Origin: a virus
IMG/VR virus record: IMGVR_UViG_3300020476_000011
Coordinates: 1 to 29,915 of that record
Reading direction: 5' to 3' (one strand)
DNA: 29,915 bases
Shown: piece by piece, positions 20,701 through 26,354 of the stretch
How the letters are laid out: every line of letters starts with the position of its first letter
How positions within the stretch are numbered: the stretch's first letter is position 1
Made by a program: the position numbers and the translations under genes
The notes under the pieces: generated by a model
The model's database searches: none
The model's input: the letters and a program-made list of their open reading frames with translations, nothing else
What the model was told of the DNA's origin: nothing

Positions 20701-20816
20701 TAAATTAAATAAAAATGGGGGTCGGATAGATGTGCTACTGGCGGTAGCAGAGCCCTTCGGAGGAGCCTCTCCAAGCAACAGGTTGAGTCCCCAGGTTACC
20801 CTAGGGACAAACCCCC
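20701..20816 (-). ncRNA. compact multi-hairpin structured RNA candidate
   Basis: Between the CobS-like stop and the SWIM promoter, the minus strand can fold as a closed multi-branch RNA. The outer stem P1 is GGGGGUU/GACCCCC (20810-20816 with 20717-20723). Inside are a 9-bp hairpin with a GUAA (GNRA) tetraloop (20787-20808), a weaker hairpin AGAG.../...CUCU around 20750-20772, and a 6-bp hairpin UGCUAC/GUAGCA (20733-20749). P1 is followed by AUUUUUAUUU, which could act as a terminator tail. GC content is far above the flanks. I compared it by eye with the cobalamin, glutamine, SAM, c-di-GMP, TPP and HDV-like classes and found no match. It could be a stable small RNA, a 3' UTR element of the CobS-like gene, or an elaborate terminator. 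Strand is inferred from gene direction. Confidence 0.6.
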
Positions 20817-20822
20817 TTACAA

Positions 20823-22025
20823 TTAAATTAATGTATCTTCCTCAGACTCCTCATCATCATCATCTACCATCTGACCCAATTCTGAAATATCTGCTCCAGC
20901 ATCAATCTTGGTAAACAAATCAAGGAAGGATTCTTTAGTTTCAGCATCAAACCTATTTACCGTCAATTCGATTGCTTTCATTTTGTTATCAAAGATAGCA
21001 AAAGCATTAACAATGTGTACCAAACGACGAGTCGATATAATCTCATCACAACCACCTTCATAAAAGGTCTTGCGAATCACATCAGCCCATTTAACCAAAT
21101 TACTACTGAGTTCGGTTTCAACCTTATCATGTTTGGCAAATTCGTTATTAAGGATTTTCTCCTCCATCTTACCCTTAGGATAAAACTGTTCAATGGTGAC
21201 AGGAAATCTTTCCAAGAAAGCTTCATTTAATACATTAGTACCAATAAAACGTCCATCATCGGATCCCTGACCCTTTGTGTTAGCAGTAGCGATAACATTA
21301 AAGCCCTTAGCAGGATGTACCCACTTACCAATCTTCTTAATATAGATTGATGAGCCTTCAAGCACTGGCTGTAAACACATAATCTTATTTGATGCCAAAT
21401 CTATCTCATCAAGGAGAAGTAAGGCGCCACGTTTCATGGCGGTCACAACAGGACCATCATGCCACACTGTCTCACCATTCAGTAAACGAAAACCACCAAT
21501 CAAATCGTCCTCGTCAGTTTCGATGGTAATATTGGCACGGACATATTCTCGTTTAAGACGAGCACAAATTTCCTGTACCATTAAGGTCTTACCATTACCA
21601 GAGAGTCCTGTTATAAACACAGGGTAGAACAATGCTGCCTTGATAATGTCCCTTACAGTATTGAAATTGCCATAAGGAACATAACCATTATGTTTTTCTG
21701 GCACATAGCTGTCTTGATTGTCCATTACACCCAAAGCAGACGGCGCCATGGCAGTAACACTATTAGCAGCAACCTGGAACACTTTAGCAGAATCTTCTGC
21801 GCCCAAGGTAACACTCCCATACTCGCCATGTTCATTTGGCAACCAATATACGCCGCGGTCTTTTTTACAACGGCTCACTAACCAACTGGGCCAGGACAAA
21901 CTAGTATCCTTTCTGACCAAGTTTAACAATTCGGTTCTGTCCATGAATGTACGGTCTTGTCCATACATCTCACGGGCTGATGCCACAAACGCTTTACGCT
22001 TGGCATTCATCTTAATCACTTTCAT
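20823..22025 (-). CDS. cobS: CobS-like AAA+ ATPase (MoxR type)
   Basis: The start at 22025 (MKVIKMNAKRKAF) follows AGAGGA; a longer TTG-started frame is less likely. The 400-residue product is a MoxR/CobS AAA+ ATPase with Walker A GLSGNGKT near 140, Walker B ALLLLDEIDLA near 203, sensor NVIATANT, and an ERFPVTIEQF segment with a likely Arg finger. In bacteria CobS and CobT form part of cobaltochelatase, but MoxR-type ATPases in general pair with VWA proteins to remodel metal-bound or protein targets. CobS-like genes are common in marine T4-like phages, where the role is unsettled. The VWA/protease partner gene lies directly upstream. The C-terminus is very acidic (DDDDEESEEDTLI). Confidence 0.88.
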   Translation of the reverse strand: MKVIKMNAKRKAFVASAREMYGQDRTFMDRTELLNLVRKDTSLSWPSWLVSRCKKDRGVYWLPNEHGEYGSVTLGAEDSAKVFQVAANSVTAMAPSALGVMDNQDSYVPEKHNGYVPYGNFNTVRDIIKAALFYPVFITGLSGNGKTLMVQEICARLKREYVRANITIETDEDDLIGGFRLLNGETVWHDGPVVTAMKRGALLLLDEIDLASNKIMCLQPVLEGSSIYIKKIGKWVHPAKGFNVIATANTKGQGSDDGRFIGTNVLNEAFLERFPVTIEQFYPKGKMEEKILNNEFAKHDKVETELSSNLVKWADVIRKTFYEGGCDEIISTRRLVHIVNAFAIFDNKMKAIELTVNRFDAETKESFLDLFTKIDAGADISELGQMVDDDDEESEEDTLI

Positions 22026-22080
22026 TATATTAGTATCCTCTAATACTCTAATCAAAATCTAGTCTTTAAACTATACGGAT

Positions 22081-22109
22081 ATGCTACAGTATTCCCATAC
22101 TTTTGTCAA
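22081..22109 (-). promoter_or_regulatory. sigma70-type promoter for the CobS-like gene
   Basis: TTGACA at 22104-22109, exactly 17 bases, then TAGCAT at 22081-22086 (4 of 6 consensus) in the gap between the VWA and ATPase genes. The predicted start near 22074 leaves a leader of about 50 bases. The inverted-repeat element at 22115-22196 abuts its upstream side. Confidence 0.7.
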
Positions 22110-22114
22110 GTCGT

Positions 22115-22196
22115 AAGTGGTTGATTTATATAGATGTCGCTTTTAGACAAGTCTATGACGTTTCTCTGGAGAAAAAGTCAATAAAATCAACCACTT
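22115..22196 (-). repeat. inverted-repeat element, copy A, upstream of the CobS promoter
   Basis: The ends are a perfect 13-bp inverted repeat (AAGTGGTTGATTT / AAATCAACCACTT at 22115-22127 and 22184-22196). The interior has two small hairpins, TTCTC/GAGAA and TAGAC/GTCTA. A second, diverged copy lies at 26047-26136, and both end a few bases upstream of a TTGACA promoter. About 30 bases at one end (GTGGTTGATTTTATTGAC and a following T-rich run) are shared, while the interior is not. Confidence 0.7.
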
Positions 22197-22210
22197 TAAG
22201 TCATTGATTC

Positions 22211-24553
22211 CTAACAGATAATTTCCATCATTCTATTGACTAAAACCTTCGACCCAAACTTCTGGGATTGGTGCTTACTAAACACCTTCTTAATTTTAGC
22301 AGCTGACATATCCTTATCAAACTCTAATTCACCAGCCTCGTCACTTATCTTACCAACAGGCACAATGTAGAAAGCATCATACCCCAAATACGAAGCAGTA
22401 ATAAATCCATCCTTTCGGAGACCCTTTCTACAAGCAGTGTGAACATCTTTATGGAAATAATGATGGCCTATAAATTGTTCCATCAATCCTTTTCTATAAC
22501 GATTGCCAACTATTCTCGTATCTAGAAAAATACCGACAATATTTGCACCCGATACTTCTCTAATCATATTGTGAATAACAGCCTCTAAGCCCAGCATCAA
22601 TTTTCTGTTACTATGAAGATATTTGAAAATTTCACCAGCTTCCGTTATTGTACTATATGAAGTTTTGGTCTTCCTATTCTCCACCACAACATCTCTCCAA
22701 GAAAAATTCAATAGGGGACTATCACCTTCATGGGCCCCTGTTACTCCGCGGGGTGTACTATTAGCTTCACCATCTGTCAATACAAACAGATTGACGATAT
22801 CCAAATTATAGTTTTCCTTAAACAGCGGAATAATCTTGTTTATACCCACTAAGCCTTCCAATAAAGGAGTAGATGATAAAGATAATTGATCCCAATCATA
22901 TTGGACCTGTTCCTCACCAAAGGAAAATAAATTACGACACATGGTACTAAGAGCCTTAGCATTCATATCACTACTAAACAATTCTAGCAATGCTGTATAT
23001 TCATTACCAAGTTTTAAGGTTGACCAAGTCTCCTTCATAATAGGAGATTTTAATCGGAAATAATCGTCCCTATCCTGATCCGACATACCTTTCTTAATTA
23101 GGTTTGAAGCTTTAGCTTCCTTATAACTTGCCGTAAAACCATATACTCTAAAAGGTATATTCACTTTATTACAAAACCATACCAACTGCATAATCTGTTT
23201 CAGAGTAGGAAGCATATGGTTATGCATACTGGCTGACCAATCAACCAACATTACCATACCATGACTCTTACCATCTGGGCGAATGATATTCTTTAGGAAG
23301 ATATCATCATTATACTTGTATGAAAACAATTTGTTTACATCAAGCACACCCGTCTTGGATGTGGACTCTTTACGATATTCCCGAGCTGCCTTTTTACGTT
23401 CAAATTCCTTGACCATATAGTTTACAATCTTACTAGACGCTATACGAAACTTATTATAGGACTCTGTTACATTTTGTTGATGCTCTTCATAAGACAGCTT
23501 TTTCCAACCACCAGAAACTCTTTTTTCGCTATGACGGTATCCATTAGTATGGTTTAAAGATTCATTATACAACCATTTATTGTGTGCTTTTAACTTCACA
23601 AAATCTTCTTGAATTTCCTTGTAAGGAATAATCATCTTATCCAACATCACCACAGGTAACTGACAATAGATGGCTTCCCGTGGCGCATTATATTCATTTT
23701 CATCCTGAGACTTGATAGCCTCGGTAAGAGCTTCCGAAGACTTGTCAAAATTATTTTGAGTGGTTGATTCCACATCTTTAAGATTTTCGGTCAACTCCTC
23801 ATTACTCTTTTCCGAAGCTTCATCCATACTTTGACTATTCGGCTGAGGAAGATTATTGGACTCCTCATCCATATCCTCATTATCAGTGGGAAACGGTAAC
23901 TCTACAGAATCACCATCCATATTCATATCAGACCATTCATGGTCATCACTAAACTGCGGTGATACTGATTGTTCCAGCTCTTGAGCCGATAACAGTTCCA
24001 TCAGAATACGGGTAACTCGTAATACATCCTTCCAGGTGTTACATTCACCAACCATCTTGACATATTCGTATTCCCAATCCTCAAAAGGAATATCAGCCTT
24101 TACACCTAATTTGTAATGGAGGTTAATACGATCCAACAAACCCATTTCAAGAACCTCTGCTGGGTCTTTAAAAAAGAATCTCTGCTTAACCAACTCTTGG
24201 TAACCATGGAGAAAATTAGTCAGAATACCGGGGTACTTTAACTTGATTTTCTTCTCGATACGGGCGTCCTCCACAATATTCAATATATCGGGATGATAGT
24301 CCTTATCCTTTACTGCTGTTGCCCAATCATCAGGAGCCGTCCATAAAGCATGACCGACTTCATGTCCAGTCATCATATCATGGACATCCTTGTTATCAAT
24401 CAACCATACAGGTAAAGTAAGAACCCGACTCACCACATCAAAACTGGCAGTCTTAGCCTTCACACTGTGCCGTACCGTAACATCCTCGGTAGCCAACAGC
24501 TTAGCCAATCTGCCTTCATTAATTGTTTGCGATTTCACGCGACGATTTCTCAT
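22211..24553 (-). CDS. CobT-like metalloprotease/VWA protein (780 aa)
   Basis: The N-terminus has a zinc-protease motif HEVGH (64-68, in MMTGHEVGHALW) and, 27 residues on, NIVEDARIEKK, where Glu95 may be the third metal ligand. A long acidic Asn/Glu/Ser stretch follows (about 205-285). The C-terminal half is a von Willebrand A domain with a MIDAS DxSxS (D438, S440, S442 in MLVDWSASMHN) and a later VLTDGEANS. This layout matches CobT-like and other VWA partners of MoxR ATPases. The CobS-like ATPase follows in the same direction. Together they probably form a chaperone-like or proteolytic complex acting on a host or virion target. AAGGA precedes the ATG. A foldable element lies in the leader. 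Confidence 0.85.
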   Translation of the reverse strand: MRNRRVKSQTINEGRLAKLLATEDVTVRHSVKAKTASFDVVSRVLTLPVWLIDNKDVHDMMTGHEVGHALWTAPDDWATAVKDKDYHPDILNIVEDARIEKKIKLKYPGILTNFLHGYQELVKQRFFFKDPAEVLEMGLLDRINLHYKLGVKADIPFEDWEYEYVKMVGECNTWKDVLRVTRILMELLSAQELEQSVSPQFSDDHEWSDMNMDGDSVELPFPTDNEDMDEESNNLPQPNSQSMDEASEKSNEELTENLKDVESTTQNNFDKSSEALTEAIKSQDENEYNAPREAIYCQLPVVMLDKMIIPYKEIQEDFVKLKAHNKWLYNESLNHTNGYRHSEKRVSGGWKKLSYEEHQQNVTESYNKFRIASSKIVNYMVKEFERKKAAREYRKESTSKTGVLDVNKLFSYKYNDDIFLKNIIRPDGKSHGMVMLVDWSASMHNHMLPTLKQIMQLVWFCNKVNIPFRVYGFTASYKEAKASNLIKKGMSDQDRDDYFRLKSPIMKETWSTLKLGNEYTALLELFSSDMNAKALSTMCRNLFSFGEEQVQYDWDQLSLSSTPLLEGLVGINKIIPLFKENYNLDIVNLFVLTDGEANSTPRGVTGAHEGDSPLLNFSWRDVVVENRKTKTSYSTITEAGEIFKYLHSNRKLMLGLEAVIHNMIREVSGANIVGIFLDTRIVGNRYRKGLMEQFIGHHYFHKDVHTACRKGLRKDGFITASYLGYDAFYIVPVGKISDEAGELEFDKDMSAAKIKKVFSKHQSQKFGSKVLVNRMMEIIC

Positions 24554-24588
24554 ATACAGTCCTTAACACTGAGTGATTTTTTGGTTGA

Positions 24589-24656
24589 TACCCCTGTGCC
24601 ACGGTGCTTTCATAATGCATGAGTAAGACATTATACCATGGGCATCCACAGGGGTA
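24589..24656 (-). promoter_or_regulatory. structured leader hairpin before the CobT-like gene
   Basis: The 107-base gap is mostly one nested hairpin. The outer 10-bp perfect stem is TACCCCTGTG/CACAGGGGTA (24589-24598 and 24647-24656), next CCATGG/CCGTGG (6 bp with one wobble), then ATAATG/CATTAT. It is not followed by a T run on the minus strand, so it does not look like an ordinary terminator. The string TATAAT at 24630-24635 sits inside it without a good -35. The downstream base of the stem runs into TATCAACC, like the arms of the repeated element elsewhere. It could be an operator or an RNA control element. Confidence 0.55.
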
Positions 24657-24660
24657 ATAA

Positions 24661-24966
24661 TCAAAATGGCATATCTACCAAACGAGGTACACCATATCTT
24701 CCAGACATCTTCCATATGTTTTTACAATCACTATTAACAATATAATTAATAACCATATCCTCTGTAATATAAAACCCAGAAGTATCTCTATGATTATTGA
24801 ATACTGCCATAGCACTATTTAATGTTCTATAATGCTTATGATGATCCTCTAAATCCATATAAGCATAATAATAAACACCATCCCGACAATACTTGATCCT
24901 GAAACCTGTAAAAGTATCCGGCCAATCAGGAGAATGTTGCCATCCAGCTTGAATAATTGCCATCAT
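24661..24966 (-). CDS. hypothetical protein (101 aa)
   Basis: This 101-residue protein begins MMAIIQAGWQHSPDWPDTFT and is rich in Tyr, His, Asp and Met. It has two separated cysteines and a middle part (VYYYAYMDLEDHHKHYRTLN) dense in aromatic residues. It reads as a small globular cytoplasmic protein without signal or membrane segments. It follows the 66-aa gene by four bases and precedes the structured CobT leader. I recognise no family. Confidence 0.8.
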   Translation of the reverse strand: MMAIIQAGWQHSPDWPDTFTGFRIKYCRDGVYYYAYMDLEDHHKHYRTLNSAMAVFNNHRDTSGFYITEDMVINYIVNSDCKNIWKMSGRYGVPRLVDMPF

Positions 24967-24970
24967 AATA

Positions 24971-25171
24971 TTACTTAACCATCCTGACAGAATGAACCAC
25001 TATATCCATCATGTCACAAAAATGAGCAGTATTGCTAATTGCTTCTTGCTCATTGTTAGCTTCAGTAGCAACCACTGCTACCAATGTACCTGGCACACCA
25101 TCACTATATTGATATGCCAGAGAATTACGGTCATCCTTACTGACCTCAGATAGTATTTCATAGGTATTCAT
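24971..25171 (-). CDS. hypothetical protein (66 aa)
   Basis: This 66-residue protein starts MNTYEILSEVSKDDRNSLAY and ends FCDMMDIVVHSVRMVK, with an alpha/beta pattern typical of small phage proteins. AGGAA lies about ten bases before the ATG. It comes after a terminator-like hairpin and a 45-base spacer, so it may have its own promoter, but none is clear to me. Function unknown. Confidence 0.78.
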   Translation of the reverse strand: MNTYEILSEVSKDDRNSLAYQYSDGVPGTLVAVVATEANNEQEAISNTAHFCDMMDIVVHSVRMVK

Positions 25172-25216
25172 TATGTTAAAATTCCTCGTCGAAAAAAATT
25201 ATATAAAAGGGCTTAG

Positions 25217-25246
25217 AAAATCACCAGATTCCGTGGGGGATTTTTT
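25217..25246. terminator. hairpin, possible bidirectional terminator
   Basis: AAAATC-x-CC and GG-x-GATTTT pair around a nine-base loop, with six Ts after it on the plus strand and a shorter T run on the minus strand. It lies in the gap after the 34-aa peptide gene, where leftward transcripts from the 26.0 kb promoter would be expected to end or be trimmed. Since no plus-strand gene is seen, minus-strand use is inferred; the longer T run favours the plus strand. Confidence 0.45.
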
Positions 25247-25327
25247 AAGACTTTCTATACACCTTGACATTGGCTGGAACAAAAGGACCACCCCCCTTTC
25301 GAGGAACTGCTTTTGCTCAGGTTGGTT

Positions 25328-25432
25328 TTATTGCCCTATTGTTATGCCCCAATAACCCATTCGGTGTAGTTCCGAGAGGACTATGATGGACCATATGGCA
25401 ACTAGGATTCCCATGTTTTTGATAAAGGTCAT
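25328..25432 (-). CDS. single-span membrane peptide (34 aa)
   Basis: The 34-residue frame starts MTFIKNMGILVAIWSIIVLS and ends ELHRMGYWGITIGQ: one hydrophobic helix at about residues 6-20 and a short polar tail. Its ATG overlaps the stop of the 150-aa gene (ATGA), as for several other peptide genes here. A longer out-of-phase frame across the same DNA is judged spurious. Function unknown. Confidence 0.6.
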   Translation of the reverse strand: MTFIKNMGILVAIWSIIVLSELHRMGYWGITIGQ

Positions 25433-25881
25433 CGGTTGTATCTCCGACGATATGAACGGCGTGGGCGTCTAATGTAACGTAGGGCTTCCTCGTTACGGCC
25501 CATGCGATATGTGAGGCGAAGCGAAGCACCGATGTTTCCATGGGCAATGCCTTCAGAGGCAAGCAGCGTCCAGCGATGGGTTATCTCACCCTGGCTGTTG
25601 ACACGCTCGACGGTCATCGGACCACTATAGCTTCCGTCTGAATTGCTATCGACATCTATGGCGCCTCTAAGGGCCTGCATGGAGCACGCTACTGCCTCCT
25701 CCACAGTTGCCGTCTTCCACACATGGCGACGATTGCCACCAAGGCAGTTACGATACTGTATAGCGAAACATGAGGCATCCAGCAGACCTCTGGCCAATGC
25801 TTCAGCAGCGGCATCAGACGGCACTGGGCTGTTCCGACCATCATCCCAATTACGTGGGATATTGTTGAATCTAGCAGACAT
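25429..25881 (-). CDS. hypothetical protein with Arg-rich tail, atypical composition (150 aa)
   Basis: This 150-residue protein begins MSARFNNIPRNWDDGRNSPV and ends in a very basic tail (YIRRPRRSYRRRYNR). The middle has VEEAVACSMQALRGAI and a compact globular look. Third positions are clearly GC-richer than in its neighbours, which points to recent acquisition or different selection. It is the first gene after the strongest promoter in the window and has a structured leader, so it may be highly expressed early. AAGGA precedes the ATG. The Arg tail suggests nucleic-acid binding. Family unknown. Confidence 0.82.
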   Translation of the reverse strand: MSARFNNIPRNWDDGRNSPVPSDAAAEALARGLLDASCFAIQYRNCLGGNRRHVWKTATVEEAVACSMQALRGAIDVDSNSDGSYSGPMTVERVNSQGEITHRWTLLASEGIAHGNIGASLRLTYRMGRNEEALRYIRRPRRSYRRRYNR

Positions 25882-25905
25882 ATATCAATCCTTATAGTTA
25901 ATTCG

Positions 25906-25988
25906 GGAGCCTTTTCAGTTAAATTCTAGACTATTCCAGTTGCCATGGAGGCATTCAGTTAAATTCTAATAGTCGCCAGTAAGGCTCC
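25906..25988 (-). promoter_or_regulatory. structured 5' leader with 15-base direct repeats
   Basis: The leader of the 150-aa gene can fold with an 8-bp outer stem (GGAGCCTT/AAGGCTCC, 25906-25913 with 25981-25988), a 7-bp inner stem (GACTATT/AATAGTC, 25929-25935 with 25968-25974) and a small TGCC/GGCA hairpin. A 15-base direct repeat TTCAGTTAAATTCTA sits at 25914-25928 and 25954-25968, exactly 40 bases apart. The element begins about 13 bases after the predicted transcription start and ends some 25 bases before the ATG. No known riboswitch class is recognised. It may bind a ligand, a protein or a small RNA, or may simply protect the mRNA. Confidence 0.55.
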
Positions 25989-26007
25989 TTTTCTATTCTA
26001 TATGTGG

Positions 26008-26036
26008 ATTATACAGAAGGGTTTTGCAGATGTCAA
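26008..26036 (-). promoter_or_regulatory. perfect-consensus sigma70 promoter
   Basis: TTGACA at 26031-26036, a 17-base spacer, then TATAAT at 26008-26013: both hexamers and the spacing are the exact bacterial consensus. The predicted start is near 26001. It drives the 150-aa gene and probably the genes after it. Such a promoter needs only the host polymerase and suits immediate-early transcription. Confidence 0.85.
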
Positions 26037-26046
26037 CCGGCGTTCT

Positions 26047-26136
26047 AAGTGGTTGATATATATACACTAATTCCCACTGGTACCTGCTTATATCCCTACA
26101 AAATGCTAAGAAAAAAATCAATGAAATCAACCATTT
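26047..26136 (-). repeat. inverted-repeat element, copy B, upstream of the perfect promoter
   Basis: The arms AAGTGGTTGAT (26047-26057) and ATCAACCATTT (26126-26136) pair over 11 bases with one G-U wobble where copy A has G-C. The end ATCAACCACTTA lies about ten bases upstream of the -35 hexamer, as in copy A. The interior is unrelated to copy A, apart from the shared stretch of about 30 bases next to the distal arm. Confidence 0.7.
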
Positions 26137-26175
26137 ACAAGGGGGACCAGGGGGTCAGTAAATAAACGCCACTTG

Positions 26176-26213
26176 GTACCTCACAGTATCTCAGAGTACC
26201 TTAGATACCTTCT
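26176..26213. repeat. 10-bp degenerate tandem repeats
   Basis: Three to four units with an exact 10-base period: GTACCTCACA, GTATCTCAGA, GTACCTTAGA, then a degraded TACCTTCT. The period matches one helical turn, so the units face the same side of the DNA. It could be an iteron-like protein-binding site or a regulatory array upstream of the promoter, or a chance short repeat. Confidence 0.5.
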
Positions 26214-26232
26214 GTAACCTATTGATTTAATT

Positions 26233-26267
26233 AAAAAAATCTCGTTGCCGAGTAGATATAGTCTCGG
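26233..26267 (-). terminator. terminator with a competing upstream arm
   Basis: On the minus strand CTCG-GCAA-CGAG forms a short GNRA-loop hairpin followed by ATTTTTTT. An upstream CCGAG (26263-26267) can pair instead with the CTCGG that overlaps the first arm. The two folds exclude each other, as in attenuators. It lies about 90 bases after the last gene of the right-hand operon, so an operon-end terminator is the simplest reading. The stem is only 4-5 bp. Confidence 0.5.
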
Positions 26268-26354
26268 TGTCCGTGAAGGTTTCTCAATGATTTCAATGAC
26301 TTATAACACTTTCCCCCACATATACACACAAGACAACACCATTTATTAAACGGT

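Follow-up and report, generated by a model that had tools for sequence, protein, structure and literature searches.

What is the function of two similar inverted-repeat elements that lie just upstream of promoters in a marine T4-like phage? The elements are carried by IMG/VR record IMGVR_UViG_3300020476_000011, which comprises 29,915 bases and was analysed over its whole length (the window); all copy counts cover just this stretch. Element 1 (22115-22196) and element 2 (26047-26136) have arms of the form AAGTGGTTGAT/ATCAACCA(C/T)TT, which are perfectly matched (11/11) in copy 1 (22115-22125 and 22186-22196) and differ in copy 2 (26047-26057 and 26126-26136) by one C-to-T/G-to-A change that would give a single G-U pair upon folding as RNA. 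The T-rich stretch is common to both elements but the interiors are not, and strong promoters of different operons adjoin them. In all these respects the description made in an earlier, sequence-only reading was found to be accurate. That reading had proposed a common operator or an RNA element. Our results indicate that the two "inverted repeats" are most likely clusters of sites for the DNA-bending protein integration host factor (IHF) rather than hairpins, and we consider it probable that each element is a cluster of sites for a proteobacterial host's IHF, or for a DNABII protein that closely resembles it.

In Escherichia coli, IHF recognizes the consensus WATCARNNNNTTR within a wrapped site of 35 bp that carries an A-tract on its left, and bends the DNA by ~160 degrees over these 35 bp (PMC8421141). 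Read on either strand, the arms of both elements have the form (A/T)ATCAACCA(C/T)TT(A/T), which corresponds to the IHF consensus WATCAANNNNTTR; the fit is exact in three arms, and the last base is off in one. The C-to-T change of copy 2 is located in the free NNNN of the consensus. On the opposite strand, the T-rich stretch reads as an A-tract about 7-9 bp to the left of the WATCAA core, the side typical of strong IHF sites. An A-tract is present in the two right-arm sites (Table 1), some other sites being T- or AT-rich at this place, and is weak in sites 22196- and 26045-. The NNNN tetramer varied (CCAC, CCAT, TGAC and TAGG in the window; GGGG, GGGT, GGAC and TAAC in other contigs) with a residual preference for AC at its final two positions. 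Exact matches to WATCAANNNNTTR were present 7 times in the window compared to 3.15 expected (standard deviation 1.8), and five of the seven were found in intergenic DNA, which represents 9.6% of the window (2,878 bases; binomial ~1.5e-4).

Sites were also scored with a 30-position matrix. Viral contigs were scanned for ATCAANNNNTTA at most 30 bp upstream of TTGACA-N16-18-TATAAT, and a mixture model was trained on 98 distinct sites among the matches listed, the window sequence being excluded. The learned motif consists of an A-rich segment from -15 to -11, YYC from -9 to -7, AA-ATCAA, a loose tetramer ending in a preferred AC, and TTAC. The seven best matches of the window (15.0 to 20.2 bits; Table 1) were all located within the two elements; five fit the core consensus WATCARNNNNTTR fully and two with one mismatch. 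The eighth match reached 9.7 bits; in simulated sequence the best match averaged 12.8 bits and the fifth best was at most 11.9 bits. With a scrambled core (AACTA) processed through the same pipeline, no window match of at least 12 bits was obtained. Three of the seven sites (22196-22225, 26214-26243 and 26275-26304) were absent from the earlier description, whose limits for the elements were slightly too narrow: with the extra sites, the clusters extend from 22113 to 22225 and from 26045 to 26304. The identical 11-mers correspond to two facing IHF-type sites and not to a palindrome under selection. Between two of the element 2 sites, short repeats resembling GGTAYC/GGTACT are clustered at 26140-26215.

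The sequence-only reading had named conservation of the arms in relatives as a check, and site clusters were indeed present in related phages. Four contigs (L021, L022, L028 and L041) were retrieved by CobT protein similarity only (37-44% identity); they carried 7, 3, 5 and 4 sites of at least 12 bits, respectively, compared to 0.3, 0.8, 0.9 and 0.6 expected by chance. A fifth contig, L013, retrieved by the arm motif itself, carried 9 such sites (0.5 by chance), five of them in the short gap after cobT, at the place matching element 1. Two cyanophages had no sites above chance in the matrix scan; their hosts are not expected to possess IHF. Matches of 17-18 bits in the Methylophilales phage Melnitz resemble CCCTTG-AAAAA-CAAGGG terminators and were treated as false positives. 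A strict scan for the arm pair in bacteria gave one match (L097), a longer GC-rich palindrome without an adjacent array that was judged unrelated. Among the strict viral matches, L006/L011/L014 and L015 appeared to be chance or coding, and L009/L010/L012 belonged to a different repeat family, GGTTGATTNGGTTAAGTGGTTGATT. This family (L009 7165-7272; L012 1060-1160 and 8600-8880) shares the 11-mer of the window but not the layout of A-tract and promoter.

The position of the sites relative to the promoters was also conserved. The gap between the site and the -35 box is 9 bp in window copy 2, L021 (twice), L013, L099 and L101, and 4-5 bp in window copy 1, L022 and L028. In the window, the promoter-proximal site faces the promoter, with a second, oppositely oriented site 73-81 bp further upstream; copy 2 and two L021 promoters have inverted pairs separated by 80-81 bp, the inner site being 9 bp from TTGACA-17-TATAAT. 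The operator part of the earlier proposal is retained in spirit, since these look like DNA sites for a protein at conserved places before -35 boxes; its RNA part was left unsupported. In viral contigs L107-L226, site-to-(-35) distances cluster at 4-5, 8-9 and 16-17 bp, with a half-turn alternation.

The histogram of gaps, taken from the promoter-upstream site set alone among the matches listed, gave weak evidence because the scrambled control, also among the matches listed, was likewise non-flat through homologous copies; the matrix test was therefore used in its place. In a test with relaxed promoters at loci chosen by CobT, the IHF core exceeded all permutations of its letters (2 forward and 3 reverse; control means 0.17 and 0.15). 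At loci from the scan with the scrambled core its counts were those expected by chance (1 and 1; means 0.80 and 0.98), so that the sites belong to certain phage groups and not to viral promoters generally. As positive controls, the phage-trained matrix gave the top rank to the IBS1-like GATCAACAACCTG of E. coli oriC and, between pspF and pspA, to a site matching 8/9 of the consensus. We take these two top-ranked sites to be the known E. coli IHF sites. An IBS1 with a GATC is present in oriC (PMC10380432).

Several other explanations of the elements were weighed. Both copies have matching termini and unlike interiors, as would be the case for a small mobile inverted-repeat element of the MITE type inserted twice, yet the interiors are unrelated and no target duplication was seen. 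Moreover, the termini are only the IHF-type sites, they occupy a conserved place relative to the -35 box, and relatives have the same layout with different termini; with neither a homologous interior nor a target-site duplication, this origin was rejected as extremely improbable. A structured RNA, in which the arms form a hairpin in a read-through transcript (cobT 3' untranslated region or leader) and act as an attenuator or processing site, is highly improbable as well. The stem would be 12-13 bp long with pairing kept as G-U despite the C-to-T change, and the fold of copy 1 is better than that of every shuffled sequence (z -5.7; z -4.4 for L013), but that of copy 2 does not stand out from the shuffled ones (z -0.7, 38/200). 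Among the 8 inverted pairs compared in the window and relatives, no compensatory conservation of the stem was found: NNNN was non-complementary in five and matching in only three, one of them via G-U, while WATCAA and TT(A) were largely kept. In many relatives, the sites found at this distance from the -35 box are single or point in one direction, the elements lie upstream of the promoters and thus outside the transcripts started there, and they have no Rfam match.

Two further alternatives accept a protein bound to DNA. IHF functions at both oriC and lambda cos, and element 2, the larger one with four sites, nearby GGTAYC-type short repeats and AT-rich DNA, is a candidate for a cluster of IHF-type sites serving replication or packaging (an origin or a cos/pac-like nucleoprotein) instead of transcription. 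The tight spacing to the -35 box at many promoters of relatives, several per contig in L110 and L021, makes this role very unlikely. It is also unlikely, though less so, that a phage-encoded or host regulator other than IHF recognizes A-tract/YYC/ATCAANNACTTAC, the clusters being the operators of a regulon of middle or late genes. Compared to the E. coli IHF consensus, the motif has greater length and specificity, and constant spacings of 4 and 9 bp to the -35 box are typical of activators that touch RNA polymerase. Nevertheless, the layout (A-tract, WATCAA, TTR and free NNNN) is that of IHF, and in 114 Gammaproteobacteria genomes the motif-matching pattern was about five-fold enriched (52 compared to 10 for the backward control). 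These matches occurred both outside and inside open reading frames; the enrichment, together with the location of many inspected matches outside long open reading frames, hints at a protein of the host. A longer motif in which CC was fixed, present in 3 of 150 Proteobacteria genomes, was too rare to serve as a test.

The IHF-type layout, the confinement of the sites to two promoter-upstream regions and their geometry were computed; from them, the bound protein would probably be IHF or a near relative of it among the DNABII proteins. Neither the window nor any of 14 related, mostly fragmentary records showed a gene for a DNABII protein, and the phage would therefore rely on its host if the factor belongs to this family. 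Host IHF would bind and sharply bend the DNA at each predicted site, and the paired or arrayed sites would fold the upstream DNA back onto RNA polymerase, through wrapping on the C-terminal domain of its alpha subunit and upstream DNA or by assisting strand opening. The inner site, 4-9 bp before the -35 box, would cover the UP-element region and turn the DNA back over RNA polymerase, with the fold made tighter by the outer inverted site; how strongly or when the cobS and cobT-region operons are expressed during infection may be set in this way. By analogy, the likeliest role of the sites is activation by DNA bending, rather than repression, because their cores avoid the -35, the -10 and the start, and because both the Mu Pe and the Caulobacter gene transfer agent promoter are activated. 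The virus thus probably controls the genes of the cobT/cobS region via a host architectural protein. A bolder proposal, which we regard as unlikely, is that a standard promoter module serves an uncultured clade of T4-like aquatic phages as a timing switch that acts throughout the genome and senses the host IHF level. The module would be an inverted IHF pair separated by 80 bp, the inner end of which lies 9 bp or, with half a helical turn less, 4 bp before the -35 box, and the two helical phases would give opposite responses.

IHF sites at phage promoters are already known. The promoter of the Caulobacter gene transfer agent and the gafYZ promoter are activated by IHF (PMC11150451). In the former, as is proposed for the window, an element for host IHF lies upstream of the promoter of a phage-type structural operon, between the -35 and further upstream; there the partner activator GafY binds upstream, whereas the window has inverted pairs or arrays. 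In phage Mu, IHF activates early transcription from the promoter Pe (cited in PMC3820752). Pe is likewise a phage promoter under a host IHF site, but Mu is temperate and transposing whereas the window phage is T4-like and has, at each of the two promoters, 3-4 predicted sites with fixed spacing. The predicted window sites share with E. coli IHF sites the core, the left A-tract in the strongest arms and the free NNNN; they differ by the added YYC at -9 to -7 and AC before TTA. The fixed-spacing inverted-pair layout was not found for T4-like aquatic phages in targeted searches of the open literature, the coverage of which was incomplete.

A number of observations weigh against IHF or against the proposed role. 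The phage motif is narrower than the E. coli consensus owing to the extra YYC and AC; the E. coli control sites score low (4-9 bits), and the phage-trained matrix gave nothing convincing in the narK-narG control. The binder could also be a DNABII paralogue or some other protein with a comparable footprint. A site 4 bp from the -35 box and one 9 bp from it lie on almost opposite sides of the helix, a difference for which one mechanism of bending does not account, and activation is proposed by analogy only. Although the proteobacterial host of the two pelagiphages could have IHF, no site above chance was found by the matrix scan in Mosig, and only two, of 21 bits, in HTVC008M, one of them at its cobT promoter. 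HTVC008M (KC465899) resembles the window in having an A-tract and AATCAACGATTTA upstream of the cobT promoter TTGACT-17-TAGGAT, but it has there one site in the opposite orientation, ~40 bp from the -35 box, and lacks a window-type element between cobT and cobS.

All the long genes of the window are on the minus strand. They include large structural and baseplate genes (PHROGs 358, 438, 219 and 261), a cobS-like and a cobT-like gene and small genes of unknown function. The closest isolates are the Pelagibacter phages HTVC008M and Mosig and the phage Melnitz (49-57% protein identity), the hosts of which are SAR11 and Methylophilales (Proteobacteria). Each element is flanked by a gene end and a sigma70-type promoter; cobT sits upstream of element 1, and L013 has the same kind of element at the equivalent place. 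A third promoter of the region, at 20699- (TTGACA-17-TAGGAT), had no IHF-type site in the consensus and matrix scans.

Table 1. Predicted IHF-type sites, promoters and adjacent genes of the two elements.
Feature	Position	Strand	Score or match	Remarks
IHF-type site, element 1 promoter-proximal (left arm), AATCAACCACTTA	22113..22142	-	18.1 bits	exact WATCAANNNNTTR; same direction as promoter 1, 4 bp before -35
IHF-type site, element 1 right arm	22169..22198	+	16.2 bits	opposite orientation; last consensus base T, not A/G; AAAAA 8 bp before AATCAA; centre 73 bp from proximal site
IHF-type site, element 1 third site, AATCAATGACTTA	22196..22225	-	19.8 bits	exact consensus; overlaps cobT end
IHF-type site, element 2 promoter-proximal (left arm), TATCAACCACTTA	26045..26074	-	15.0 bits	exact consensus; 9 bp before -35 of promoter 2
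IHF-type site, element 2 right arm, AATCAACCATTTA	26109..26138	+	20.2 bits	opposite orientation; AAAAAAA; top match of whole window; carries G-C to G-U change; centre 81 bp from proximal site
IHF-type site, element 2 further site, AATCAATAGGTTA	26214..26243	-	18.2 bits	exact consensus; NNNN is TAGG
IHF-type site, element 2 further site, TTTCAATGACTTA	26275..26304	+	16.7 bits	one mismatch; opposite orientation; centre 78 bp from site 26214..26243
Promoter 1, sigma70-type	22081..22109	-	TTGACA-17-TAGCAT	precedes cobS
Promoter 2, sigma70-type	26008..26036	-	TTGACA-17-TATAAT (12/12)	precedes operon leading to cobT; first gene a 150-aa gene, 25429-25881
cobS, CobS-like AAA ATPase gene	20823..22055	-	PHROG 249, E 1.4e-117	first gene behind promoter 1; 73% identity to L013 CobS
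cobT, CobT-like / "peptidase" gene	22211..24553	-	PHROG 459, E 1.1e-166	39% identity to L013 CobT

Other repeats were noticed in the vicinity. The partial TATCAACC string that had been reported before the CobT-like gene exists at ~24585-24592, but it does not fit the IHF-type motif, since the required position has no TT. The same spot, just upstream of the gene, carries an inverted repeat, TACCCCTGTG / CACAGGGGTA, with copies ~50 bp apart (24585-24660). The transcript leader from the promoter at 26036 (25905-25990, minus strand) has a closing stem GGAGCCTT/AAGGCTCC and a direct repeat AGAATTTAACTGAA (fold z -1.6).

A structured RNA-like element was observed on the minus strand after cobS (20718-20815), with the arrangement GGGG..TCCCTNRGGTAACYTGGGGACTC..GCTTGGAGAGGC..GGCTCT..variable hairpin..ACATCTATCCGACCCC, often followed by T-rich DNA. 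It is also present in L430 (the contig of L021), its near-copy L431, L432, L433, L434 and L435 (the contig of L022), and is located behind cobS in the window and behind cobT in L022. Compensatory changes were found in three predicted pairs, most columns being invariant. The element of 20718-20815 had no Rfam match and is possibly an undescribed phage RNA.

To our knowledge, hardly anything is known about gene regulation in non-cyanobacterial marine T4-like phages. If the elements are clusters of IHF sites, the promoters of these phages would be recognizable from sequence by their IHF-site grammar. IHF is described as confined to few phyla, proteobacteria for example (PMC10380432). The same grammar would also hint at a proteobacterial host. 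The level of host IHF follows the growth phase, and phage gene expression would be tied to a host protein whose level tracks growth.

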